This document shows, in pieces, positions 1 through 63,508 of a stretch of DNA of 64,000 bases (the stretch's first letter is position 1; every line of letters starts with the position of its first letter). This DNA comes from Tubiluchus corallicola. Lineage: Eukaryota > Priapulida > Priapulimorpha > Priapulimorphida > Tubiluchidae. Both the position numbers and the translations under genes were made by a program. Where the stretch lies: the NCBI GenBank assembly GCA_030141605.1, contig JAQGDQ010000472.1, positions 111,154 to 175,153 of the forward strand, read 5' to 3'. Under the pieces are notes generated by a model. The model was not told where the DNA came from. It did no database searches and saw only the letters and a list, made by a program, of their open reading frames with translations.

Positions 1-1329
1 CCTTTATCATACACTTACGATACAGTACCTTTATCATACACTTACGATACAGTACCTTTATCATACACTTACGATACAGTACCTTTATCATACACTTACG
101 ATACAGTACCTTTATCATACACTTACGATACAGTACCTTTATCATACACTTACGATACAGTACCTTTATCATACACTTACGATACAGTACCTTTATCATA
201 CACTTACGATACAGTACCTTTATCATGCACTTACGATACAGTACCTTTATCATACACTTACGATACAGTACCTTTATCATACACTTACGATACAGTACCT
301 TTATCATGCACTTACGATACAGTACCTTTATCATACACTTACGATACAGTACCTTTATCATACACTTACGATACAGTACCTTTATCATACACTTACGATA
401 CAGTACCTTTATCATACACTTACGATACAGTACCTTTATCATACACTTACGATACAGTACCTTTATCATACACTTACGATACAGTACCTTTATCATACAC
501 TTACGATACAGTACCTTTATCATACACTTACGATACAGTACCTTTATCATACACTTACGATACAGTACCTTTATCATACACTTACGATACAGTACCTTTA
601 TCATACACTTACGATACAGTACCTTTATCATACACTTACGATACAGTACCTTTATCATACACTTACGATACAGTACCTTTATCATACACTTACGATACAG
701 TACCTTTATCATACACTTACGATACAGTACCTTTATCATACACTTACGATACAGTACCTTTATCATACACTTACGATACAGTACCTTTATCATACACTTA
801 CGATACAGTACCTTTATCATACACTTACGATACAGTACCTTTATCATACACTTACGATACAGTACCTTTATCATACACTTACGATACAGTACCTTTATCA
901 TACACTTACGATACAGTACCTTTATCATACACTTACGATACAGTACCTTTATCATACACTTACGATACAGTACCTTTATCATACACTTACGATACAGTAC
1001 CTTTATCATACACTTACGATACAGTACCTTTATCATACACTTACGATACAGTACCTTTATCATACACTTACGATACAGTACCTTTATCATACACTTACGA
1101 TACAGTACCTTTATCATGCACTTACGATACAGTACCTTTATCATGCACTTACGATACAGTACCTTTATCATACACTTACGATACAGTACCTTTATCATAC
1201 ACTTACGATACAGTACCTTTATCATACACTTACGATACAGTACCTTCATCATACACTTACGATACAGTACCTTTATCATACACTTACGGTACAGTACCTT
1301 TATCATACACTTACGATACAGTACCTTTA
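1..1329. repeat. 27-bp minisatellite array, about 49 copies
   Basis: The unit reads cctttatcatacacttacg followed by atacagta. Copies are almost identical, with a recurrent A/G change (catacac/catgcac). The period is divisible by three and lacks stops, so it gives an artefactual open frame of nonapeptide repeats. The array runs off the left edge. The same unit recurs inverted at 23797-25434. Confidence 0.97.
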
Positions 1330-1706
1330 TTGTCAACTCTGTTAAAGTACCACTTTTGAAAGCATCAGAGACAATGACGAGAATTTGTGCACTATAATTT
1401 CTCTCTTGTAACCCAGGAGGAAGAATACATGGAGGTAAAATAGGATCTATACTGTAGTGCAGCAACATTCCTGCAAAATATAGATATTATTGTTTATTTT
1501 GTTTATTTATTTCACATCAACACAAACACACAATTAATACATTATAAGAAACAAAAAGTTATCAATAATTCGATGAATAACAAACAGTAAGATACATAAT
1601 AGGAAGCAAATTTTGGAACAAATGATTTAAACTGTCTTTAGACGTAAGTCAACCTATGGTAAACAAAGATAGTGATATCGCTACTTCCTTTAATACTGGT
1701 GTCTAA
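1330..1706. repeat. Unique flank of the 27-bp array, shared with 23421-23796
   Basis: This 377-bp segment matches the reverse complement of 23421-23796 along its whole length with scattered differences. Homology stops abruptly after gtgtctaa. Array plus flank therefore form one dispersed element. No coding capacity is visible. Confidence 0.9.
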
Positions 1707-8270: not shown

Positions 8271-8418
8271 CTAATATCAATGACTGGTCTTTCTCCTGGT
8301 AAAGCAATTATTTCTTGCTTGGCTATGACAGCAGGTCTGCCTTTTCTTCCAAATGACAGCGCAAAAGTCAGTGTTAAGTTCTGAGGTAAAGATTTCGGAG
8401 GAACAGCAATGATTGATT
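8271..8418 (-). CDS. REJ module exon
   Basis: 148 bp, starting in phase 1 and ending in phase 2. Acceptor ttttcttttcag, donor gtattc. The product reads SIIAVPPKSLPQNLTLTFAL, then SFGRKGRPAVIAKQEI and IALPGERPVIDI-R. This is the beta-strand-rich stretch of the REJ module: an L-P-x-x-L-T-x-T-F strand followed by a G-x-P-V-I-x-I turn. It joins exon 11642-11736 through a shared GAA codon and exon 6480-6718 through a shared AGG codon. Confidence 0.85.
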
Positions 8419-11641: not shown

Positions 11642-11736
11642 CATTAAAAAGTAGAAGAACTGAGCTGTCTGCAAAACATCCCGGGGCATCGGGAGCAGGA
11701 ATGCGACCCGTACCCACGTAGCAGTACCACGTGTAC
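11642..11736 (-). CDS. REJ module exon (YTWYCYVGTG block)
   Basis: 95 bp, starting in phase 2 and ending in phase 1. Acceptor cctactttttaag, donor gtatga. The product is YTWYCYVGTGRIPAPDAPGC, then FADSSVLLLFN. The aromatic-W-x-C followed by a second cysteine is the W-x-C motif that follows the S-Y-D-P-D block in REJ modules. Phases fit both neighbours (13698-14035 and 8271-8418). Its acceptor lies directly at the edge of a 1.2-kb minisatellite. Confidence 0.85.
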
Positions 11737-12945
11737 CTTAAAAAGTAGGTATTAGACTACTAAAGTAAAAAAGCAGGTATTAGACTACTAGAGTAAAAAA
11801 GCAGGTATTAGACTACTAAAGTAAAAAAGTAGGTATTAGACTACTAAAGTAAAAAAGCAGGTATTAGACTACTAGAGTAAAAAAGTAGGTATTAGACTAA
11901 TAGAGTAAAAAAGTAGGTATTAGACTACTAGAGTAAAAGAGCAGGTATAGACTACTAGAGTAAAAATTAGGTATTATACTACTAAAGTAAAAAAGCAGGT
12001 ATTAGACTACTAGAGTAAAAAAGTAGGTGGACCACTAGAGTAAAAAAGTAGGTATTAGACTACTAGAGTAAAAAAGCAGGTATTGGACTACTAGAGTAAA
12101 AAAGTAGGTATTAAACTACTAGAGTAAAAAAGTAGGTATTAGACTACTAGAGTGAAAAAGTAGGTATTAGACTACTTAAGTAAAAAACCAGGTATTAGAC
12201 TATTAGAGTAAAAATTAGGTATTAGACTACTAGAGTAAAAAAGCAGGTATTAGACTATTAGAGTAAAAAAGTAGGTATTAGACTACTAGAGTAAAAAAGT
12301 AGGTATTAGACTACTAGAGTAAAAAAGTAGGTATTAGACTACTAGAGTAAAAAAGTAGGTATTAGACTATTAGAGTAAAAAAGCAGGTATTAGACTACTA
12401 GAGTAAAAAAGCAAGTATTAGACTACTTAAGTAAAGAAGCAGGTATTAGACTATTAGAGTAAAAAAGTAGGTATTAGACTACTAGAGTGAAAAAGTAGGT
12501 ATTAGACTACTAGAGTAAAAGAGCAGGTATTAGACTACTAGAGTAAAAAAGTAGGTATTAGACTACTTAAGTAAAAAACCAGGTATTAGACTATTAGAGT
12601 AAAAATTAGGTATTAGACTACTAGAGTAAAAAAGCAGGTATTAGACTATTAGAGTAAAAAAGTAGGAATTAGACTACTATAGTAAAAAAGTAGGTATTAG
12701 ACTACTAGAGTAAAAAAGTAGGTATTAGACTACTAGAGTAAAAAAGTAGCTGTTACACTACTACAGTAAAAAAGTAGGTATTAGACTACTAGAGTAAAAA
12801 AAGCAGGTGTTAGACTACAAGAGTAAAAAGTAGGTATTACACTACTAAAAAAGTAGGTAGACTACTAGAGTAAAAAAGCAGGTATTAGACTACTAGAGTA
12901 AAAAAGTAGGTATTAGACTATTAGAGTAAAAAAGTAGGTATTAGC
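11737..12945. repeat. 28-bp minisatellite, about 43 copies, made of splice-acceptor-like units
   Basis: Forward unit: gtaggtattagactactag plus agtaaaaaa, with many single-base variants and a few shortened units. On the gene's sense strand every unit reads ctaatac, then a T run, then actctag: a branch-point-like motif, pyrimidine tract and AG in correct order. The last unit merges with the real acceptor of exon 11642-11736. Confidence 0.95.
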
Positions 12946-12964
12946 ATTAGGTATGGGCTTAATG

Positions 12965-13612
12965 TATATATATATAAGATTCGAGGCTACAGCTCGGACG
13001 ACGGCACCATTAGCGGCGATCTATAAATCAAACGAAAGGTCTCCATCTAGTGTCGTGCCATTGGGGGTTTATTTTTTGAATCGGGCCCACTGCGAGGAAC
13101 GGGGGGCAAAAAACCTCCAAAAATGGCCATTTTTCGGTCATTTTTTTGCAAAACGTATACCACTGAGATCTGGAGAACGGGAATGGGCCATTGGTGGTGC
13201 TGGCCATGGATAGCTAGCCCGTTCAGCGGTGAGTGTAGTAGGCATATTTAGAATTTGCGAGAGGGCCACAGGGTCACACTTTCCCGGACCCAACTCCGAA
13301 TTTTTTCGAAATTTGGTCAAACAGTCTGCAGAAAAAACATTCTAGCAGCGCCCGGTGGGACTCTCGGAGGGAGATATACGGCTCTTCAGAAAGACGAAGA
13401 ACAGGGCTACACGATGATGTCAGCTATATTTTAGGACACGTCCACCAAGAGGAGTATCGACGAGTTAATTAGATGTTCTATTTTTGGCAATTTTCGCTTG
13501 GAAAACTGCTGACGCAAAGCCATTGTTCTGACGTGATCTGAACAATATAACTATAACAATATACTCTGCTTATAACTTTCATTCAGTAAAAGCTGCTGGC
13601 TGTAGGATGTTC
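12965..13612 (+). mobile_element. Dispersed repeat, family G
   Basis: Starts with (ta)n and gattcgaggctacagct. Passes through aggtctccatctagtgtcg, aacgggaatgggcc and tttcccggacccaactc to gctgacgcaaagccattg. Other copies or fragments: 22224-22512, 23270-23420, 52870-53200, 56265-56824 and 57932-58485. Without coding capacity; superfamily unassigned. Confidence 0.75.
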
Positions 13613-13697
13613 GCGTATTATTGATTATAAGTGTATTTATATGCAAATTTTTTTACGATGCCTTTGCTAGTTAAGGAATTAATTTACTTATACTTAC

Positions 13698-14035
13698 ATA
13701 TAAGGCAGATCAACATGATCGGTGTGATTTATACCATAAACAAATTCATGGTAAGTGTATCGATCAGGCTCCTTATCGTCGGTCACATTTACAGTTTCAG
13801 CAGCATAGTATCCACAACGCCCATCACTCTCACGTCCAAAAGCAAAGTCATCGTCGTTGTCGTCAATATCTTCTACGTGAGGCCCGTGTTCGTGTCCCGC
13901 GTCGCTGTACGGAGGATGGTCGGGATCGTACGACGCAGAACCGTTTATCACGAAGCTTTTGTCCCAGTTGACAATTCTAATGTCGCTGCCTTGCAAAATC
14001 GGCAGCAATTCTGAATGCTGTATAATGATCCAACC
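13698..14035 (-). CDS. REJ module exon (GSASYDPD block)
   Basis: 338 bp, starting in phase 0 and ending in phase 2. Acceptor ttctctag, donor gtaagt. The product begins GWIIIQHSELLPILQGSDIR, then WDKSFVINGSASYDPDHPP. The segment x-L-x-x-S-x-S-Y-D-P-D is the best conserved signature of REJ modules. An unusual acidic and histidine-rich insert (about residues 44-65: GHEHGPHVEDIDDNDDDF) follows, then GRCGYYAAETVNVTDDKEPD. The insert could bind cations; that is speculation. Confidence 0.9.
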
Positions 14036-14079
14036 CTAGAGAACAAAAGTAGAAACAGAAAATTAATGAGTTTTGTAAT

Positions 14080-14458
14080 ATGTACGGCTTAATTTGTAAT
14101 AATTGTGGCTCAATTTGTAATAATTACGGCTTAATTTGTAATAATTACGGCTCAATTTGTAATAATTACGGCTTAATTTGTAATAATTACGGCTTAAATT
14201 GTAATAATTATGGCTTAATTTGTAATAATTACGGCTCAATTTGTAATAATTACGGCTTAATTTGTAATAATTACGGCTTAATTTGTAATAATTACGGCTT
14301 AATTTCTAATAATTACGGCTTAATTTCTAATAATTACGGCTTAATTTCTAATAATTACGGCTTAATTTCTAATAACTACGGCTTAATTTCTAATAATTAC
14401 GGCTTATTTTGTAATAATTACGGCTTAATTTCTAATAATTACGGCTTAATTTCTAAGA
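14080..14458. repeat. 21-bp minisatellite, 18 copies
   Basis: Unit ttaatttgtaataattacggc. Copies in the right half carry ttct in place of ttgt, so two homogeneous sub-blocks exist. It lies 45 bp upstream, in the gene's sense, of the acceptor of exon 13698-14035. Confidence 0.95.
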
Positions 14459-23420: not shown

Positions 23421-23796
23421 TTAGACACCAGTATTAAAGGAAGTAGCGATATCACTATATTTGTTTACCATAGGTTGACCTACGTCTAAAGACAGTTTAA
23501 ATCATTTGTTCCAAAATTTACTTCCTATTATGTATCTTACTATTTGTTATTCATCGAATTAATGATAACTTTTTGTTTCTTTTAATGTATTAATTGTGTG
23601 TTTGTGTTGATGTGAAATAAATAAACAAAATAAACAATAATATCTTTATTTTGCAAGAATGTTGCTGCACTACAGTATAAACCCTATTTTACCTCCGTGT
23701 ATGCTTCCTCCTGGGTTACAAGAGAGAAATTATAGTGCACAAATTCTCGTCATTGTCTCTGATGCTTTCAAAAGTGGTACTTTAACAGAGTTGACG
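23421..23796. repeat. Flank of the 27-bp array (inverted copy of 1330-1706)
   Basis: Starts ttagacaccagtattaaagg and runs to gagttgacgataaagg, where the array begins. Contains gaaataaataaacaaaataa. A second, short match (ttttaatgtattaa onward) is at 25881-25945. Confidence 0.9.
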
Positions 23797-25434
23797 ATAA
23801 AGGTACTGTATCGTAAGTGTATGATGAAGGAACTGTATCGTAAGTGTATGATAAAGGTACTGTATCGTAAGTGTATGATAAAGGTACTGTATCGTAAGTG
23901 TATGATAAAGGTACTGTATCGTAAGTGTATGATAAAGGTACTGTATCGTAAGTGTATGATAAAGGTACTGTATCGTAAGTGTATGATAAAGGTACTGTAT
24001 CGTAAGTGTATGATAAAGGTACTGTATCGTAAGTGTATGATAAATGTACTGTATCGTAAGTGTATGATAAAGGTACTGTATCGTAAATGTATGATAAAGG
24101 TACTGTATCGTAAGTGTATGATAAAGGTACTGTATCGTAAGTGTATGATAAAGGTACTGTATCGTAAGTGTATGATAAAGGTACTGTATCGTAAGTGTAT
24201 GATAAATATACTGTATCGTAAGTGTATGATAAAGGTACTGTAAGTGTATGATAAAGGCACTGTATCGTAAGTGTATGATAAAGGTACTGTATCGTAAGTG
24301 TATGATAAAGGTACTGTATCGTAAGTGTATGATAAAGGTACTGTATCGTAAGTGTATGATAAAGGTACTGTATCGTAAGTGTATGATAAAGGTACTGTAT
24401 CGTAAGTGTATGATAAAGGTACTGTATCGTAAGTGTATGATAAAGGTACTGTATCGTAAGTGTATGATAAAGGTACTGTATCGTAAGTGTATGATAAAGG
24501 TACTGTATCGTAAGTGTATGATAAAGGTACTGTATCGTAAGTGTATGATAAAGGTACTGTATCGTAAGTGTATGATAAAGGTACTGTATCGTAAGTGTAT
24601 GATAAAGGTACTGTATCGTAAGTGTATGATAAAGGTACTGTATCGTAAGTGTATGATAAAGGTACTGTATCGTAAGTGTATGATAAAGGTACTGTATCGT
24701 AAGTGTATGATAAAGGTACTGTATCGTAAGTGTATGATAAAGGTACTGTATCGTAAGTGTATGATAAAGGTACTGTATCGTAAGTGTATGATAAAGGTAC
24801 TGTATCGTAAGTGTATGATAAAGGTACTGTATCGTAAGTGTATGATAAAGGTACTGTATCGTAAGTGTATGATAAAGGTACTGTATCGTAAGTGTATGAT
24901 AAAGGTACTGTATCGTAAGTGTATGATAAAGGTACTGTATCGTAAGTGTATGATAAAGGTACTGTATCGTAAGTGTATGATAAAGGTACTGTATCGTAAG
25001 TGTATGATAAAGGTACTGTATCGTAAGTGTATGATAAAGGTACTGTCGTAAGTGTATGATAAAGGTACTGTATCGTAAGTGTATGATAAAGGTACTGTAT
25101 CGTAAGTGTATGATAAAGGTACTGTATCGTAAGTGTATGATAAAGGTACTGTATCGTAAGTGTATGATAAAGGTACTGTATCGTAAGTGTATGATAAAGG
25201 TACTGTATCGTAAGTGTATGATAAAGGTACTGTATCGTAAGTGTATGATAAAGGTACTGTATCGTAAGTGTATGATAAAGGTACTGTATCGTAAGTGTAC
25301 GATAAAGGTACTGTATCGTAAGTGTATGATAAAGGACTGTATCGTAAGTGTATGATAAAGGTACTGTATCGTAAGTGTATGATAAAGGTACTGTATCGTA
25401 AGTGTATGATAAAGGTACTGTATCGTAAGTGTAT
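23797..25434. repeat. 27-bp minisatellite array, about 60 copies, inverted
   Basis: Unit aaggtactgtatcgtaagt plus gtatgat, the reverse complement of the unit at 1-1329. A few units have 1-4-base deletions (near 24241, 25047 and 25335), which break the otherwise continuous artefactual frames. Confidence 0.97.
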
Positions 25435-28345: not shown

Positions 28346-30217
28346 ACACTACCCGCTTTTTGACAAACTAACACCCGCTTTTTGACAAACTAACACCCGC
28401 TTTTTGACAAACTAACACCCACTTTTTGACAAACTAACACCTGCTTTTTGACAAACTAACACCCACTTTTTGACAAACTAACACCCGCTTTTTGACAAAC
28501 TAACACCCACTTTTTGACAAACTAACACCCAGTTTTTGGCAAACTAACACCCGCTTTTTGACAAACTAACGCCCACTTTTTGACAAACTAACACCCGCTT
28601 TTTGACAAACTAACACCCGCTTTTTGACAAACTAACGCCCACTTTTTGACAAACTAACACCTGCTTTTTGACAAACTAACACCCGCTTTTTGGCAAACTA
28701 ACGCCCAGTTTTTGACAAACTAACACCTACTTTTTGACAAACTAACACCCGCTTTTTGACAAACTAACGCCCAGTTTTTGGCAAACTAACACCCGCTTTT
28801 TGACAAACTAACACCCACTATTTGGCAAACTAACGCCCGCTTATTGACAAACTAACACCCACTTTTTGACAAACTAACCCCCAGTTTTTGACAAACTAAC
28901 ACCCACTATTTGGCAAACTAACGCCCGCTTATTGACAAACTAACACCCACTTTTTGACAAACCAACACCCGCTTTTTGACAAACTAACACCCGCTTTTTG
29001 ACAAACTAACGCCCAGTTTTTGACAAACTAATGCCCAGTTTTTGACAAACTAACGCCCGCTTATTGACAAACTAACACCCACTTTTTGACAAACCAACAC
29101 CCACTTTTTGACTAACCAACACCCGCTTACTGACAAACTAACACCGACTTACTGACAAACCAACACCCGCTTATTGACAAACCAACACCCGCTTATTGAC
29201 AAACCAACACCCGCTTATTGACAAACTAACACCCGCTTTTTGAAAAACTAACACCGACTTACTGACAAACCAACACCCGCTTATTGACAAACTAACACCC
29301 GCTTATTGACAAACCAACACCCGCTTATTGACAAACTAACACCCGCTTTTTGACAAACTAACACCCACTTTTTGACAAACTAACACCCGCTTTTTGACAA
29401 ACTAACGCCCACTTTTTGACAAACTAACACCCGCTTTTTGACAAACTAACACCCGCTTTTTGACAAACTAACGCCCACTTTTTGACAAACTAACACCTGC
29501 TTTTTGACAAACTAACACCCGCTTTTTGACAAACTAACACCCACTATTTGGCAAACTAACGCCCAGTTTTTGACAAACTAACACCTACTTTTTGACAAAC
29601 TAACACCCGCTTTTTGACAAACTAACGCCCAGTTTTTGGCAAACTAACACCCGCTTTTTGACAAACTAACACCCACTATTTGGCAAACTAACGCCCGCTT
29701 ATTGACAAACTAACACCCACTTTTTGACAAACTAACCCCCAGTTTTTGACAAACTAACACCCACTATTTGGCAAACTAACGCCCGCTTATTGACAAACTA
29801 ACACCCACTTTTTGACAAACCAACACCCGCTTTTTGACAAACTAACACCCGCTTACTGACAAACTAACACCCACTTTTTGACAAACTAATGCCCAGTTTT
29901 TGACAAACTAACACCCACTATTTGGCAAACTAACGCCCGCTTATTGACAAACTAACACCCACTTTTTGACAAACCAACACCCGCTTTTTGACTAACTAAC
30001 ACCCGCTTACTGACAAACTAACACCGACTTACTGACAAACCAACACCCGCTTATTGACAAACCAACACCCGCTTATTGACAAACTAACACCCGCTTTTTG
30101 AAAAACTAACACCGACTTACTGACAAACCAACACCCGCTTATTGACAAACTAACACCCGCTTATTGACAAACCAACACCCGCTTATTGACAAACTAACAC
30201 CCGCTTATTGACAAACT
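28346..30217. repeat. 22-bp minisatellite, about 85 copies, with higher-order pattern
   Basis: Unit acacccgctttttgacaaacta with variants (actttttg, cagttttt, cttattg, ctatttgg). The same order of variants recurs with an offset of about 836-858 bp (38-39 units), for example the block around cctgc at 28660 and 29497. Confidence 0.95.
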
Positions 30218-54273: not shown

Positions 54274-55649
54274 CTACAAGTATATACTTTTCTTTGGATT
54301 ATATAGAAAATGTCATAATTTTAAAAATTACTAATGTGTCCTAAATTAAACTGATAACATCAATGCCCACCAGTGTCTAAAAAAATCTTTTTATCAATAT
54401 TCGGTAAAGGATAGCAGACTAGGTGACTTTATAGTCTTTTCGCTAACCTTTCTCTAGTTCTAGAGCTATCTATTCATTTTAACCATTCTTCAAAACTTAC
54501 TACAGATTCTTTTATTAATCATGTTTTATTGTAGCATTGTAAAGATATAAATAAAATTAACTGAATTGAATTGTCTTTTCGCTATCCTTTCTCTAGTTCT
54601 AGATCTATCTATTCATTTTAACCATTCTTCAAAACTTACTACAGATTCTTTTATTAATCATGTTTTATTGTAACACTATAAAGAGATAAATAAATTGAAA
54701 TTGAATTGAACTTATAATCAAGTGTGTCAAACAATTTTTGAAAGTTGTTGTTTTACGTTCAAAACAACGACATTAGTAAAACCTACACACTTTTAATAAG
54801 AAAAAAATTGCAAATGTATCGTGCAGTAAAATGAAATTTTTATGCTAATTTATTCAAACGACGTTTCAACTGCAACTTGACAGAAAATGAGGTGAGGTGC
54901 CATACAAGTGTGAACAAAGCAATCTTCTTATACGGTGAGGTGTCATAATTAATTAGTACATTTTTTTCTTTCACCTAAAGTCTATTTAAGCGGGTTATTA
55001 CTTATTGCTTATGTATTACAATTCAGTGGTGCCATCTATGGGTCTTTTCTGTCGTAAATTAATAAATCAGTAGATTGTTAACAAACTGGTTTCGAAATCT
55101 TTCCAATGTTTGGGAAATTTTTAGACTTTGTTTTATGCGACTGGTAAATTTACGTGACGTCGACACATGAGCAATTACGTTTGAGATTAGATTGTACCAT
55201 CGACTTTTGTAATTTGTCATTTTCATGCCAGACAGCAACAGGTGCGCGTGAGGCAAGTTCATAACCTTGGGAAATTACCGTCTCTTTAATCTGATTTTGC
55301 CGTTACGTAATATTTGCATAAAGCTTTAGTAATATGTATGTGATCCGTAATTTTTTGTAGAGTTCTTTCGTGTTATCTTGAAAAGGTAAATTTGCTTTGC
55401 ACCTGTAGCAGGATATCAGCCAGCATTTACATAAGTAGCTTTTTCTTTTGGGCGTGTATTATCTTAGTGCATAAATGATTTACACCTGCAATTCACAGTA
55501 TCTTGTACTTAAATATCCATCTGTCTCCCAAGGGAAAGAGTTAAAAGAAAGGAGGATAACGTCTTCTAGGAGGTTAAGCTTATTTCAACCTTCGCGAAAA
55601 ATGTTAGGCGGATTTAGTAATGAAATGCATTTTGTTTTAGTTAAATTAA

Positions 55650-56262
55650 GAGCCTCGTGTAATTAGTAAAATCAATTTAAATTTGCGATCACTTCACGCT
55701 TAAAATTCACTTAATTTTAATAGATTAAAATATTATAAGCGCCTCGTGTAATTAGTAAAATCACATTAAATTTGTGATCACTTCACACTTAAAATTCACT
55801 TAATTTTAATAGATTAAAATAATATAAGCGCCTCGTGTAATTAGTAAAATCACTTTAAAGTTGTGATCACTTCACACTTAAAATTCACTTAATTTTAATA
55901 AATTAAAATAATATAAGCGCCTCGTGTAATTAGGAGAATCACTTTAAAGTTTTGATCACTTCACACTTAAAATTCACTTAATTTTAATAAATTAAAATAA
56001 TATAAGCACCTTGTGTAATTAGAAGAATCACTTTAAAGTTGTGATCACTTATCACTTAAAATCCACTTAATTTTAATAGATTAAAATAATATAAGCACCT
56101 CGTGTAATTAGGAGAATCACTTTAAAGTTTTGATCACTTCACACTTAAAATTCACTTAATTTTAATAGATTAAAATAATATAAGCGCCTCGTGTAATTAG
56201 TAAAATTACTTTAAATTTGTGATCACTTCACACTGAAAATCCACTTAATTTTAATAAATGGC
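55650..56262. repeat. 89-bp tandem array, 7 units (left arm)
   Basis: The marker cctcgtgtaattag recurs at an exact 89-bp spacing (55653, 55742, 55831, 55920, 56009, 56098, 56187). Each unit holds gtgatcac and aattttaatagattaaaat, both near-palindromic. Confidence 0.95.
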
Positions 56263-56264
56263 TT

Positions 56265-56824
56265 TGCGTCAGCAGTTTTCCAAGCGGAAATTACCAAAAA
56301 TAGAACATCTAATTAACTCGTCGGCACTCCTCTAGGTGGACGTGTACTAAAATATAGCCCACATCATCGCCTGTTCTTCCTCTTTCTAAAGAGCTATATA
56401 TCTCCTTCCAAAAGTCCCACCAGGCGCCGCTAGAACGTTTTTTCCTCATGCTGTTTGGTCAAAATTTCGAAAAAATCGCGAGTTGGGTCCGGGAAAACGT
56501 CTGTTGCGGGACGCCATGGCCCTCTTGCGAATTCTAAATATGCCTATGACACCCACCGCTGAATGGAATATCTACGTATAGCCAGCACCACCCTCGGCCC
56601 TTTCCCGTTCTCCAGATCTCAGACGTATAACTTTTGCCAAAAACGGCCAAAAAATGACCATTTTGGAGGTTTTTCGCCCCCCGTTCGTCCCGGTGGCCCC
56701 GATTCGAAAGATAAATTCCCAATGGCACGACACTAGATCGAGACCTTTCGTTTGATGTATAGATCACCGCAAATGGTGCCGTCGTCGGAGCTGTAGCCTC
56801 GAATCTTATATATATATATACCAG
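56265..56824 (-). mobile_element. Family G element (left arm)
   Basis: Minus-strand copy ending in (ta)n near 56820; the mirror of 57932-58485. Confidence 0.8.
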
Positions 56825-57090
56825 TAGACTTCTAGAGCGCATGCGAAACATCGTTTTAGATGAAACCCAGACAGTTGTATACTAATGTATAGACACTAGC
56901 TCGAAATAAAGTATGTTCTAAAATATTGAAAACTACAATAGCTTTTCTTTAAATCAAAGCTTAGATTAAATAATAATTACCTCGGATACTCAAAGGCAAT
57001 ACCGTGATAACCATAATCATGAACTGCTGTGTTAGTTTTTGACGTCATATGATGTAGAGCCCATTTTCGATTAAATAGTTCTGTAACACT

Positions 57091-57652
57091 ATTGTCAGCA
57101 CTGGACACAGACACCCCCGAGTGCATAAAAACATCATGGGTGTCCACTGTCCAGCTGTATAAAGTGCATCTGTACACAACATATCATTTGCCTCAAAGGA
57201 TAGGTCACTGGACACAAGGAAATTCCTGCATACTATAAACAAATACAATCTGACACGGATAGCCAATGTCCAGCCTAATAGAAATAAACAAATCGAGTTG
57301 AAGTGAATTGATCTCACGTGTTAAGCGTATCACTGTTTAGTTTTATGAGAGAGAAGCACGAATCAGCACTGTTGCATGAAATGTTACATGGTAACAAAAA
57401 ATTTTTTTGTCATTAGGTACAAATATACCACAATTTTGTGCTTTTTTGTTATGGACTCAATCTCATTTTAACTTACTGTACAAAATATACATTTTCTTGC
57501 CTATAAAAGTTAACAATTGTTCCATATATTTGAATAATTAGCTTTGAAAGTTAATTAACGGCAGTCGAACACAGCTATTGCTTACGTCAGAAACTAACCA
57601 CAGTTTGTGCAATGACAGGCATCTTCCCTTGCGCGTCAAGCACATTTGCATA
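57091..57652. other. Spacer of the inverted repeat
   Basis: ~360 bp of single-copy sequence, then the left half of a family T element. The symmetry axis therefore falls inside family T: the right half of T is in both arms, its left half only here. Confidence 0.85.
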
Positions 57653-57858
57653 AGTGTTACAGAACTATTTAATCGAAAATGGGCTCTACATCATATGACG
57701 TCAAAAACTAACACAGCAGTTCATGATTATGGTTATCACGGTATTGCCTTTGAGTATCCGAGGTAATTATTATTTAATCTAAGCTTTGATTTAAAGAAAA
57801 GCTATTGTAGTTTTCAATATTTTAGAACATACTTTATTTCGAGCTAGTGTCTATACAT
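57454..57858 (+). mobile_element. Family T element spanning spacer and right arm
   Basis: Collinear with 26176-26690 from gactcaatctcattttaa to tttagaacatacttt, with an internal deletion and lacking both extreme ends. Confidence 0.8.
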
Positions 57859-57931
57859 TAGTATACAACTGTCTGGGTTTCATCTAAAACGATGTTTCGC
57901 ATGCGCTCTAGAAGTCTACTGGTATATATAT

Positions 57932-58485
57932 ATATAAGAGATTCGAGGCTACAGCTTGGACGACGGCACCATTTGCGGTGATCTATACAACAAACGAAAC
58001 GTCTCGATCTAGTGTCGTTTCAGTGGGGGTTTATTTTTCGAATCGGGTCCACCGGGAAGAACGGAGGGCGAAAAACCTCCAAAAATGGCCATTTTTCTGC
58101 CGTTTTTTTGCAAAAGTTATACGTCTGAGATCTGGAGAACGGGAACGGGCCGAGGGTGGTGCTGGCTATAGACCATTCAGCGGTGGGTGTCATAGGTGTA
58201 TTTAGAATTCGCGAGAGGGCCACGGCGTCCCGCAACAGACATTTTCCCGGACCCAACTCGCGATTTTTTCGAAATTTTGACCAAACAGCATCTGGATAAA
58301 ATGTTCTAGCAGCGCCTGGTGGGACTCTCGGAAGGAGATATATAGCTCTTTAGAAAGAGGAAGAACAGGCGATGATGTGGGCTATATTTTAGGACACGTC
58401 CACCTAGAGGAGTGCCGACGAGTTAATTAGATGTTCTATTTTTGGTAATTTCCGCTTGGAAAACTGCTGACGCAAAGCCATTTAT
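57932..58485 (+). mobile_element. Family G element (right arm)
   Basis: gattcgaggctacagcttgg to gctgacgcaaagccattt; mirror of the left-arm copy, collinear with 12965-13530. Confidence 0.8.
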
Positions 58486-58489
58486 TAAA

Positions 58490-59090
58490 ATTAAGTGGAT
58501 TTTCAGTGTGAAGTGATCACAAATTTAAAGTAATTTTACTAATTACACGAGGCGCTTATATTATTTTAATCTATTAAAATTAAGTGAATTTTAAGTGTGA
58601 AGTGATCAAAACTTTAAAGTGATTCTCCTAATTACACGAGGCACTTATATTATTTTAATCTATTAAAATTAAGTGAATTTTCAGTGTAAAGTGATCACAA
58701 CTTTAAAGTGATTCTTCTAATTACACAAGGTGCTTATATTATTTTAATTTATTAAAATTAAGTGAATTTTAAGTGTGAAGTGATCAAAACTTTAAAGTGA
58801 TTCTCCTAATTACACGAGGCGCTTATAATATTTTAATTTATTAAAATTAAGTGAATTTTAAGCGTGAAGTGATCACAACTTTAAAGTGATTTTACTAATT
58901 ACACGAGGCGCTTATATTATTTTAATCTATTAAAATTAAGTGAATTTTAAGTGTGAAGTGATCACAAATTTAATGTGATTTTACTAATTACACGAGGCGC
59001 TTATAATATTTTAATCTATTAAAATTAAGTGAATTTTAAGCGTGAAGTGATCGCAAATTTAAATTGATTTTACTAATTACACGAGGCTCT
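58490..59090. repeat. 89-bp tandem array, 7 units (right arm)
   Basis: Reverse complement of the left-arm array with the same number and order of variant units (for example the acacaagg unit at ~58720 pairs with the ccttgtgt unit at 56009). Confidence 0.95.
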
Positions 59091-60450
59091 TAATTTAACT
59101 AAAACAAAATGCATTTCATTACTAAATCCGCCTAACATTTTTCGCGAAGGTTGAAATAAGCTTAACCTCCTAGAAGACGTTATCCTCCTTTCTTTTAACT
59201 CTTTCCCTTGGGAGACAGATGGATATTTAAGTACAAGATACTGTGAATTGCAGGTGTAAATCATTTATGCACTAAGATAATACACGCCCAAAAGAAAAAG
59301 CTACTTATGTAAATGCTGGCTGATATCCTGCTACAGGTGCAAAGCAAATTTACCTTTTCAAGATAACACGAAAGAACTCTACAAAAAATTACGGATCACA
59401 TACATATTACTAAAGCTTTATGCAAATATTACGTAACGGCAAAATCAGATTAAAGAGACGGTAATTTCCCAAGGTTATGAACTTGCCTCACGCGCACCTG
59501 TTGCTGTCTGGCATGAAAATGACAAATTACAAAAGTCGATGGTACAATCTAATCTCAAACGTAATTGCTCATGTGTCGACGTCACGTAAATTTACCAGTC
59601 GCATAAAACAAAGTCTAAAAATTTCCCAAACATTGGAAAGATTTCAAAACCAGTTTGTTAACAATCTACTGATTTATTAATTTACGACAGAAAAGACCCA
59701 TAGATGGCACCACTGAATTATAATACATAAGCAATAAGTAATAACCCGCTTAAATAGACTTTATGTGAAAGAAAAAAATATACTAATTAATTATGACCTC
59801 ACCGTATAAGAAGATTGCTTTGTTCACACTTGTATGGCACCATCACCTCATTTTCTGTCAAGTTGCAGTTGAAACGTCGTTTGAATAAATTAGCATAAAA
59901 ATTTCATTTTACTGCACGATACATTTGCAATTTTTTTTTTCTTATTAAAAGTGTGTAGGTTTTACTAATGTCTCGTTGTTTTGAACGTAAAACAGCAACT
60001 TTCCAAAAATTGTTTGACACACTTGATTATAGAAAGTTCAATTCAATTTCAATTTATTTATCTCTTTATAATGCTACAATAAAACATGATTAATAAAATA
60101 ATCTCTAAAAAGTTTTGAAGAATGGGTAAAATGAATAGATAGATCTAGAACTAGAGAAAGGATAGCAAAAAGACAATTCAATTCAACTCAATTCAATTAC
60201 AATTTATTTATCTCTTTATAATACTACAATAAAACATGATTAATAAAAGAATCACTAATAAGTTTTGAAGAATGGTTAAAATGTATAGATAGATCTAGAA
60301 CTAGAGAAAGGATAGCGAAAAGACTATAAAGTCACCTAGTCTGCTATCCTTTACCGAATATAGATAAAAAGATTTTTTAAACACTGGTGGACATTAATTT
60401 TATCAGTTTAATTTAGGAAACATTAGTAATTTTTAAAATTATGACATTTG

Positions 60451-62265
60451 CTATATAATCCAGAGAAAAGAATATACATGTAGAAACTTCACCTTGTCCT
60501 TGAAGCGAAGGAGAGGACGACCAACACTGCGAGAGCCACTGGTTAGTTCTCCATGGAGAAGGGCCTTTGTCGGTCTCTTATCGTTCATTCTGACCACATG
60601 CCCAAACCACCGAAGTTGAGCCTTAGTAAGCGTAACCTCGATATCTTCCATCTTGGCACGAGCATGCACGTCTTCGTTTGGCACATAGTCGTCCCAGCGA
60701 ATACGAAGGATGTGACGCAGATGTCTCTGCTGAACCGCACGAAGAGACCTGACCTGATCTTGATAGAGCGTCCACGTTTCCTGACCATAGGTAAGCTGCG
60801 GAATGATGCATTGCTTGTACACCTGCAGTTTAGTGGCGATGGTAAGGTCATGGTTATCGAAGACACGTTTCCTCATACGGCCGAAAGAGCTGGCTGCAGC
60901 ATTAATTCTTGCATGAAGCTCAGTATCCAATCGAGTATCTGAACAGATGTAACTTCTGAGATATTTGAACCGTTGCACACTTCCAAGCTGTTCTCCGTCA
61001 ATGGTAAAATTGACACTGTCACTAGAGCCGACACTCATTGTCTCAGTCTTCCTTTTGTTAATGCGCAGTCCCATTCTCTTTGCAGTTTCATTGTAAATGT
61101 CGATGAGATCCTGAAGGTCTTCCGGGTTGTCAGAGAAGATAGCTATGTCATCGGCATATTGTGCTTCACGCAGGAACATCATTCGTGTCTTCGTCCTTGC
61201 TTTGAGTCGACGTAGGTCAAAAATGTCTCCATCATATCTGAATCGAACATGAATGCTCTTCGTCGAGCCAAGTCTGCCGAAGGCTACCTGCAAAAGGACT
61301 GCAGCGAAAAGTCCGAAAAGAGATGGAGCTAACTTGCAGCCTTGTTTCACACCGCTGTTGTATTCTACAGGATCACTAAGCTGGCCATTGACAGAGAGAC
61401 GCGCTAGCATATCAGTGTGCAGAGCTTTTACCATACTTGTAAATCGATCTGGGCATCCACACTTTGAAAGCACCTTGTACAGCAGTTCGCGATTGACACT
61501 GTCAAATGCCTTTGTAAAGTCGATAAAGGCAATATGCATTGATGTTCTATGCTCTCTCGTTTTCTCCATCAGCTGACGAATCGTAAAAATACCATCAATG
61601 GTACTGCGATCCCGTCGATACCCTGACTGAGACTCTGGGTAGATACGCTCCAAAATCTTGTCCAGCCGAACGAGAAGAATGTCTGCAAAAAGCTTTCCGA
61701 CAACACTGAGTAAGGAAATGCCACGATAGTTACCGCAATCACTGCGATCACCCTTTTTGAACAAAATGGTGATGTTAGCATTGACAAAGTCACGAGGCAT
61801 ATCACCAGTCCTCCAAATAACGTTGAAGAGCTCCAAAAGATGATTCTGGAGAGAAGCACCGCCATGGATGATAACCTCTGGTGGGACACCATCAGGTCCA
61901 GGGCTTTTCCGTCGCTTGATACGGCGAATAGAGTACTTGAGTTCCTCGAGGGTGACTAGTCCATCCATCTCATCGACGGCTGATAACTGAGGTATTTCAT
62001 CCAAGATAGTAAAGTCAGCGTCGGTAGTTTGATTCAGTAAAGTGCTGAAGTGCTCCATCCAACGATTCTGGATATCATTGGATGAGTTGAGAGTGTCACC
62101 AGCAATAGATTTGATAGGATGGTTACAACGCGATGTCGGACCATAAACGGCATTGAGAGAAGCGTAGAATTCCCGGAAATTCTTCATTTGGGCGTGTCTT
62201 TCAACTTCATTGGCTCGGTCCTGGAACCACTGATTCTTCATAAGTCGGATGATTTCTGAGCTCAC
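60451..62265 (-). pseudogene. LINE reverse transcriptase frame
   Basis: About 590 residues of LINE origin. Blocks in order: KSPGPDGVPPEVI, ITILFKKGDRSDCGNYRGIS, SQSGYRRDRSTIDGI, AFIDFTKAFDSVNRELLYK, GVKQGCKLAPSLF, the catalytic QYADDIAIFS, MGLRINKRKTETM, TYGQETW, LRWFGHVVRM. All core reverse-transcriptase motifs are intact. The last ~11 codons (after RFKDKVKF) come from the inverted-repeat arm and are foreign. There is no ATG at the frame start; it must be read from the endonuclease frame through a one-base shift near 62265-62280. Its recent activity is suggested by the absence of stops, but this copy cannot make a full protein. Confidence 0.9.
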
Positions 62266-63508
62266 GCCTGTTTTTCTTGTCCTTGACTAGTGCACCGATT
62301 TCAAGCTCGTTGAACCAGTCTCGGTTGCGATTTCCTTGTTTACCGAACACAGCTTCTGCACTGTTGAGTAGGATTTCCTTGGTTTCATCCCAAGATGGTC
62401 TACAATCACTCAAAACATTGGCAAGATAAACCTGCAGTTTGGATTCTTTGCCTTCGTCAACTTCGACATTGAACCTCTTTGGTGGACGCTGAGGGCGAGC
62501 AGGTTTCTGTAGCATGAATGAACATTTGCACACCAACAATCTGTGATCCGTGAAACAGTCTGCAGTTAGACTTGCTTTGGTCACACGGATGTTGTTGTCA
62601 CTCATGGTTTTCTTACAAGCCAAGATGTGATCAAGTTGATGCCAGTGCTTGGACCGTGCATGCTGCCATGTAGTCTTCATCCTATCGTGAAGCCTGAAGA
62701 AGCTTCCAGTCACAGAGAACTCCATCCTGGCACAAAATTCTAGCAGTAGAAGTCCGTTTGAGTTCATGTTCCCTGTTCCATGTTTGCCAAGCACACCTGG
62801 CCAAGTCATAGAATCTCTTCCTACTCTTGCATTCATGTCCCCTAGGATAATCACCTTGCCATCATTTGCAGCTTGCCTAGCATGAGCAGTGAGATTATCG
62901 TAGAACGATTCTTTTTCATGATTAGAGCACTGCAAAGTGGGGCCATACACGCTAAAGAGAGTAAGAAAGGATCTGTCCTGTAGCCGAAGTTTCAACATCA
63001 TGAGACGATCATTGATAGCTAAGGGCTGTGACTCCAATTGTAACTTGTTAGACACTGCGAAGCCAACTCCTGCAACCTGGTGTACACCTCCGCTCCAATA
63101 AATGGTATGGGTCTTCTCTACCACATTGCCTTCACCAGGGCGTCGGACTTCAGAAACTGCGCAGATATCAATGTTGACGTCGTTTAGAGCTTCACAGATA
63201 ATCGCAGTGGCCCTCTCCGGCCGTAAATTTCCATTATTATCATTTGTGGTTCTGACATTCCAACATCCTAAACTAAGGAGATTCTTGGGTTGTGGGCTTC
63301 GCAAATTTCTCACCGTTGCCACTGGACGGCGCGTCGGCTCCCCTGGACGCGGTAGCATAGTGTTGTCATCATTTGTCGTAGTCATCATCATGGAGAAAAG
63401 AATTAGCACTGAGACGCTTGCGCGCGAGAAGAAATGGCCGCTCAAAGTCCACCTCCACTTGGCAGATAGAGTGTAGATCGGCGGCATGAAGAGACACGAC
63501 GGCCGCAC
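62207..63508 (-). pseudogene. LINE apurinic endonuclease frame
   Basis: About 415 residues before the frame break. Motifs: LLSLGCWNVRT, DICAVSEVRR (catalytic Glu), YWSGGVHQVAGVGFAV, LFSVYGPT, VIILGDMNARVGR, HQLDHILA, DCFTDHRLLVC (the S/T-D-H-R box). These define an APE-like endonuclease of non-LTR elements. The true start may be the Met near 63445 (MMMTTTNDDN). The frame passes into the wrong phase after KDKKNR, where RELRNHPTYEE replaces the RT-linked sequence; a run of five A residues lies at that point. Confidence 0.9.

Follow-up and report, generated by a model that had tools for sequence, protein, structure and literature searches.

A 28-bp satellite of splice acceptor-like units, probably born in place from the 3´ splice site of a REJ exon in Tubiluchus corallicola

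Can the acceptor of an intron seed a satellite, and how is the intron then spliced? This question is raised by a 64,000-nt stretch of Tubiluchus corallicola DNA (the window), the minus strand of which carries a long gene that contains EGF exons, REJ exons and, further upstream, a SUEL-lectin-like exon (a weak match, under the curated cut-off). Next to one REJ exon lies a tandem array that a preliminary description, made from the sequence by a model, had read as about 43 copies of a splice acceptor, which would have arisen by expansion of the exon's own 3´ splice site and would supply the splicing machinery with dozens of decoy or redundant branch points. The interval singled out there (11642-12945) comprises the array and the exon, and the anatomy had been read correctly. 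The features considered here are collected in Table 1.

Table 1. Features of the array gene and its surroundings, in window coordinates.
Feature	Position	Strand	Remarks
27-bp donor array of exon F, ATAAAG|GTACTGTATCGTAAGTGTATG	1..1330	-	extends over the final 6 nt of the exon; continues beyond the window, 60 units in total
Exon F (REJ), donor expanded	1325..1470	-	REJ score rises from 86.5 to 114.8 bits with F
Exon C2 (REJ), 148 nt	8271..8418	-	downstream partner of exon C; required by the frame; newly found in this analysis
Exon C, 95 nt, part of REJ domain	11642..11736	-	donor ATG|gtatg
Presumed working acceptor of exon C, CTAATACCTACTTTTTAAG	11737..11755	-	predicted branch A 11752, AG 11737-11738; use of the branch point inferred; similar single copy in three paralogs
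28-bp satellite, 43.6 copies	11740..12944	-	unit with CTAAT, T-run and TAG on the sense strand; TRF, 88% matches
Non-repeat intron, 20 nt	12945..12964	-	separates the array from the transposable element
Interspersed element	~12965..13672		same intron as the 28-bp array
Exon B (REJ)	13698..14035	-	upstream splicing partner of exon C
Inverted copy of exon F and donor array	23421..25434	+	98% identical, 61 units

The 95-bp REJ exon claimed at the end of the array, exon C, proves genuine on both frame and domain evidence. Joining A, B, C, C2 and D gives one open frame, and inclusion of C and C2 lifts the Pfam REJ score from 99.5 bits to 145 (exon C alone brings a gain of about 10 bits, from 219.9 to 229.6). 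When all eight REJ exons are joined, stops appear in every frame and the junction from D to REJx (6480 to 4168) does not close; an exon or boundary is probably missing from the gene model between D and the next REJ exon. A PDB search with the joined exons returned two weak matches only (E 0.098 and 0.92), and Rfam and tRNA scans gave no match.

The intron between exons B and C is 1961 nt long and, in sense order, consists of 25 nt including the donor, an interspersed element, 20 nt, the 28-bp array and AAG, followed by exon C. The consensus unit on the sense (minus) strand is TAGTCTAATACCTACTTTTTTACTCTAG, and in most units the order is branch point, pyrimidine tract and AG, as had been described; the copy number given also agrees with the TRF count. 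Aligned to the consensus, the array gives 42 full-length rows plus partials of 24 nt and 20 nt. A yTnAy branch motif is retained in 37/44 rows, an AG is found at columns 27-28 in 34/43, and the next AG in 42/43. The last partial unit is identical to the consensus at 20/20 positions, bearing out the claim that the exon's own pyrimidine tract looks like a unit, and leads directly into AAG|GTACACG. The array had been said to end exactly at the real acceptor. Its last partial unit does run into that acceptor and provides the branch motif and pyrimidine tract, but the repeat stops 3 nt short of exon C.

Within the array, a run of three variant units reappears 14 units away, the pattern expected from unequal exchange. 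We saw no trace of selection on the units, changed cells amounting to 15/210 in the branch columns versus 59/966 elsewhere, and the row alignment revealed no extra conservation in the branch, tract or AG columns; that the branch columns are no more conserved than the rest fits neutrality. A hairpin with the branch motif exposed in the loop was also considered and was rejected, as its 5-bp stem (-3.2 kcal/mol) was no better than those of shuffled sequences (z = -0.26 for the unit and -1.24 for 459 nt).

To what extent a unit resembles an acceptor was scored with rough, home-made splice matrices that use rounded values. On this scale one unit reached 12.1 versus 9.6 for the real exon C acceptor (acceptors of exons B, C2 and D: 14.8, 12.8 and 8.5, respectively). 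The score of the unit was equalled by 31/2000 shuffles and by 58/4000 random 28-mers from the window, and was exceeded by a 51-bp array on the strand opposite to the sense of the gene (13.3 versus 12.1, same rough matrices). Taken alone, the likeness of the unit to an acceptor is modestly beyond chance and not decisive; its position and the paralogs are stronger evidence.

We searched the 343.5-Mb assembly to which the window belongs for further copies of the unit. All matches to the exact unit core (at least 17, 17/17) and to the 28-mer with up to three mismatches (at least 36, 36/36) fell in this array, and the reversed control gave 0. While a dispersed satellite has copies elsewhere in the genome, here a single locus was found in the 343.5 Mb. 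An exact 24-mer had 0 matches in viral and prokaryote contigs.

Ten paralog regions, chosen among 53 matches in the assembly, were fetched, and eight of them have exon C and the intron position. In the three closest (contigs C2157, C110 and C1409; protein identity ~70%) the matching intron measures 279, 306 and 306 nt, no tandem repeat was found in it, and there is one acceptor each, CTAATGACTATTTATTTAAG|GTATA. Compared with the acceptor of the array gene, CTAATACCTACTT-TTTAAG|GTACA, 16/19 array-gene bases are identical from CTAAT to AAG. This alignment scores 11, versus 9 or less for 25 unrelated acceptors (28 controls were intended; the C2 acceptors of the three paralogs were dropped, their AG not having been located). 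The presumed branch A of CTAAT lies 16 nt from the G in the paralogs and 15 nt in the array gene. Without AAG, the 16-nt unit core scores 8 against the paralog acceptors, a value that the best unrelated ones match or exceed (9 and 8), so that the homology rests on AAG, spacing and place. For the remaining 12 nt of the unit, TACTCTAGTAGT, no counterpart was seen by eye in the paralog introns. In our reading the unit core represents the branch motif and tract that this exon had ancestrally, since intron, gene family, distance and exon are the same. The other five of the eight loci with exon C, which are more distant, have different acceptors. An inspection of the corresponding intron in relatives had been proposed as a check, and the three paralogs, which are arrayless and have a single similar acceptor in the corresponding position, together with the single-locus repeat, support an origin by expansion of exon C's own 3´ splice site.

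Other features of the family and of this intron were noted. In five further paralogs among the 53 matches (C1882, C1923, C198, C1930 and C2172; loci L030, L031 and L033-L035), one open frame runs from the end of exon B into D. Given these single long frames through the exon junctions, part of the family seems to be without these introns, and these REJ paralogs, which have open frames of ~2440-2750 codons, are perhaps retrogenes. At a further locus (L045, contig C1862:36000-42000), part of exon B is duplicated along with its donor, and the same element is inserted there (88% identical); exon C and the array were absent from the 6 kb fetched. Leaving out the element and the array would give an ancestral intron of 64 nt, a reconstruction ruled out by the 279-306 nt introns of the close paralogs. 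A direct repeat flanking exon C, CTACTTTTTAA-GGTA and CTACTTTTTAATGGTA, ranked first among 400 acceptor-donor pairs from the gene (equalled by 1/5000 shuffles), but it was treated as coincidence, as the exon end is coding and is different in close paralogs (CTTCCTTTTAATG or AACG).

What the units could do in splicing depends on where their AGs lie. An AG is found 20 nt downstream in 26/47 CTAAY motifs and just 3 nt downstream in 7/47, where it may be skipped in scanning. Scanning from a branch point, according to PMC1431707, takes the first downstream AG unless this is less than ~12-15 nt away, and the 15 nt between branch point and AG at exon C are near this lower limit. The AG-free zone before the real AG measures 20 nt and has one CTAAT inside. 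With each CTAAY having its own AG, the real AG should not be reached from branch points further upstream, and the units thus are decoy acceptors rather than redundant branch points. Of the roles that had been envisaged, decoy sites are borne out as anatomy, the units containing complete acceptors, whereas the idea of redundant branch points is not supported. Every AG upstream of the real acceptor (78/78) leads to a premature stop, and skipping the 95-nt exon C shifts the frame, again to a stop. A tuning of exon inclusion by copy number, which had also been suggested, is therefore less probable than was supposed; copy number could at most alter the share of productive mRNA. As the decoys score above the true acceptor by the rough matrices, silent tolerance is not obvious.

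A second splice-site array lies in the same gene, at the donor of exon F. The 27-bp unit combines the last bases of the exon with the donor, each unit containing ATAAAG|GTACTG, and has a second donor, GTAAGT, inside; the array reaches 1330 and the exon ends at 1325. There are 60 units in this gene, 61 in the inverted copy and 27 in a 95% identical copy (contig C1858). The paralogs on C2157, C110 and C1409 have a single exon F donor, AATAAAG|GTAAGG (AGTAAAG|GTAAGG for C110), and two more distant copies of exon F have different donors. With one donor in the same three paralogs and many here, exon F is a second case supporting in-place origin. The unit leaves the frame of exon F open up to the window edge (489 codons), such that a repeat of nine residues would be added if the intron were retained. 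In the inverted copy, the array portion occupies 23796-25434.

Across the gene span, 4/9 arrays end 50 nt or less from an exon boundary (equalled by 36/20000 random placements) and 2/9 end 10 nt or less from one (336/20000), a post hoc count based on our own exon map and choice of arrays, with exon F one base short (1326 versus 1325) and with a tenth array, the inverted copy of the exon F array, left out. Other repeats in these surroundings include a 21-bp array (14072-14456) ending 36 nt upstream of the exon B acceptor, a 22-bp array (28351-30217) ending ~45 nt upstream of an EGF exon, and, in three paralogs, a 48-bp intronic minisatellite near the exon D donor with ~1, 3 and 5 copies (loci L039, L041, L049 and L051 on contigs C2157 and C1409, L040 on C110). 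A large inverted structure at 54434-60324 contains mirror-image 89-bp arrays (55647-56256 and 58483-59092) as well as two copies of the element that adjoins the 28-bp array, and LINE-like reverse transcriptase and endonuclease reading frames are found on the minus strand at 60451-63508.

The reading that we favor, with a probability of about three in four, is that exon C's native 3´ splice site gave rise to the satellite where it stands, and that the array is a tolerated, neutral minisatellite. A stretch with the exon's branch motif and pyrimidine tract would have been duplicated in tandem, and the array would then have been enlarged by slippage or unequal exchange. The copy adjoining the exon presumably retained its function, with a predicted branch A at 11752, the tract and AAG|G, leaving the other units as what would be complete but unwanted acceptors. 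These decoys may be tolerated because recognition of the 95-nt exon would favor the exon-proximal site, and transcripts that do use them, having early stops, would probably be lost.

Alternatively, the likeness between unit and acceptor might reflect base composition, an unrelated satellite having expanded up to the acceptor by chance. In line with this, ~1.5% of shuffled units and the unrelated 51-bp array score as well as the unit, the core without AAG is as far from the paralog acceptors as from unrelated ones, and the 22-bp array at 28351-30217 has CTAAYACCYRCTTTTT in common with it, on the plus and thus the opposite strand (a likeness equalled in 5/500 shuffles for the consensus, and in 0/500 for a rare variant unit that was picked afterwards). 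Against it stand the lack of copies found elsewhere in the 343.5 Mb, the CTAAT-to-AAG alignment with the paralog acceptors, which surpasses that of all 25 unrelated ones, and exon F, where the pattern is repeated at a donor, and we regard a chance arrival as improbable. The array could also have come with the adjoining transposable element, the end of which is 20 nt away, but three other copies of this element (57925, 56818 minus and 22501 minus), read at the matching end, are without the 28-bp array, and the search of the assembly gave no further locus with the unit, making this source scarcely credible.

The number of units might act as a splicing rheostat that sets, through competition from the decoys, how often exon C is joined correctly, the array then being used or selected. 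The decoys are full acceptors scoring above the real site by the rough matrices, the length of an intronic VNTR in ABCA7 correlates with skipping of exon 19 according to PMC5954066, and two IFI6 repeat units serve as donors in the account given in PMC4526556. However, stops follow from exon skipping and from all 78/78 upstream AGs, leaving no alternative protein, and the columns for branch, tract and AG are without extra conservation; such use is unlikely. We consider quite improbable the bolder version, in which the array would be a working device whose stronger decoys restrain the yield of the REJ/EGF protein according to copy number, with the exon F donor array acting likewise.

The closest known parallels are the 'mirages' of amphioxus, described in PMC3087553 as minisatellite-like tandem duplications of exon-intron boundaries in Adh3, BflGb6 and BflGb9. 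They occur at both 5´ and 3´ boundaries, and in Adh3 their units measure 10-72 bp, many carry AG/GT signals and the copy number is variable. The 28-bp array resembles them as a tandem minisatellite from a native splice boundary, and has AG signals in its units, but differs in that the repeat comprises the branch motif and tract with no exon base and no final AG, and in numbering 43 copies, compared with 6 or 3 copies of 150-160 bp in BflGb6. Its derivation from the local boundary is supported by the single locus and by the paralogs, with a short alignment in which the core without AAG does no better than with unrelated acceptors, and it stops 3 nt before exon C. Since mirages by definition span the boundary, we call the 28-bp array a variant of a mirage, whereas the 27-bp array of exon F fits the term: it spans the boundary and its length is unstable (60, 61 and 27 units, between copies rather than alleles).

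Repeats at splice sites are also documented in humans and nematodes. IFI6 (6-16, G1P3) has a minisatellite with multiple splice donors (Turri 1995, as cited in PMC4526556 and PMC2572611). Like the 28-bp array, it is a minisatellite of repeated splice sites and by analogy is a donor-side precedent; according to PMC4526556, two of its units are used to give three mRNAs, whereas the site repeated here is an acceptor and use of a decoy would lead to a stop. In human duplicated genes, PMC2812944 reports variable minisatellite-type repeats at exon-intron boundaries, by which novel introns or activated cryptic splice sites are possible; about half of these are in the coding sequence of recent paralogs, while the 28-bp unit is intronic and itself an acceptor. 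The ABCA7 VNTR is likewise an intronic repeat whose length goes with exon skipping, but the abstract of PMC5954066 does not describe its units as splice acceptors, making it a functional analogy for a rheostat only. In C. elegans, regions of alternative splicing have an excess of the minisatellite CeRep25B near them, according to PMC4039745. Among the literature titles listed, with most subscription papers outside the scope, none names a satellite that has an acceptor as its unit.

If the array were a working device after all, a fast-mutating repeat would set the dose of a large REJ/EGF protein, with exon F at the other end of the domain. Under the reading favored here, in-place birth from the native 3´ splice site, the locus and its sister genes together suggest that a satellite can grow out of the acceptor of the very intron in which it lies. 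With some 43 full acceptors in tandem before a weaker one that must win (strength as judged by the rough matrices), the array offers a natural experiment on how branch points are chosen, how AGs are scanned and how exons are recognized. The presence of two splice-site arrays in one gene suggests that boundary-born minisatellites, a route to new or shifted introns, extend beyond the Adh3 and globin genes for which PMC3087553 describes them.
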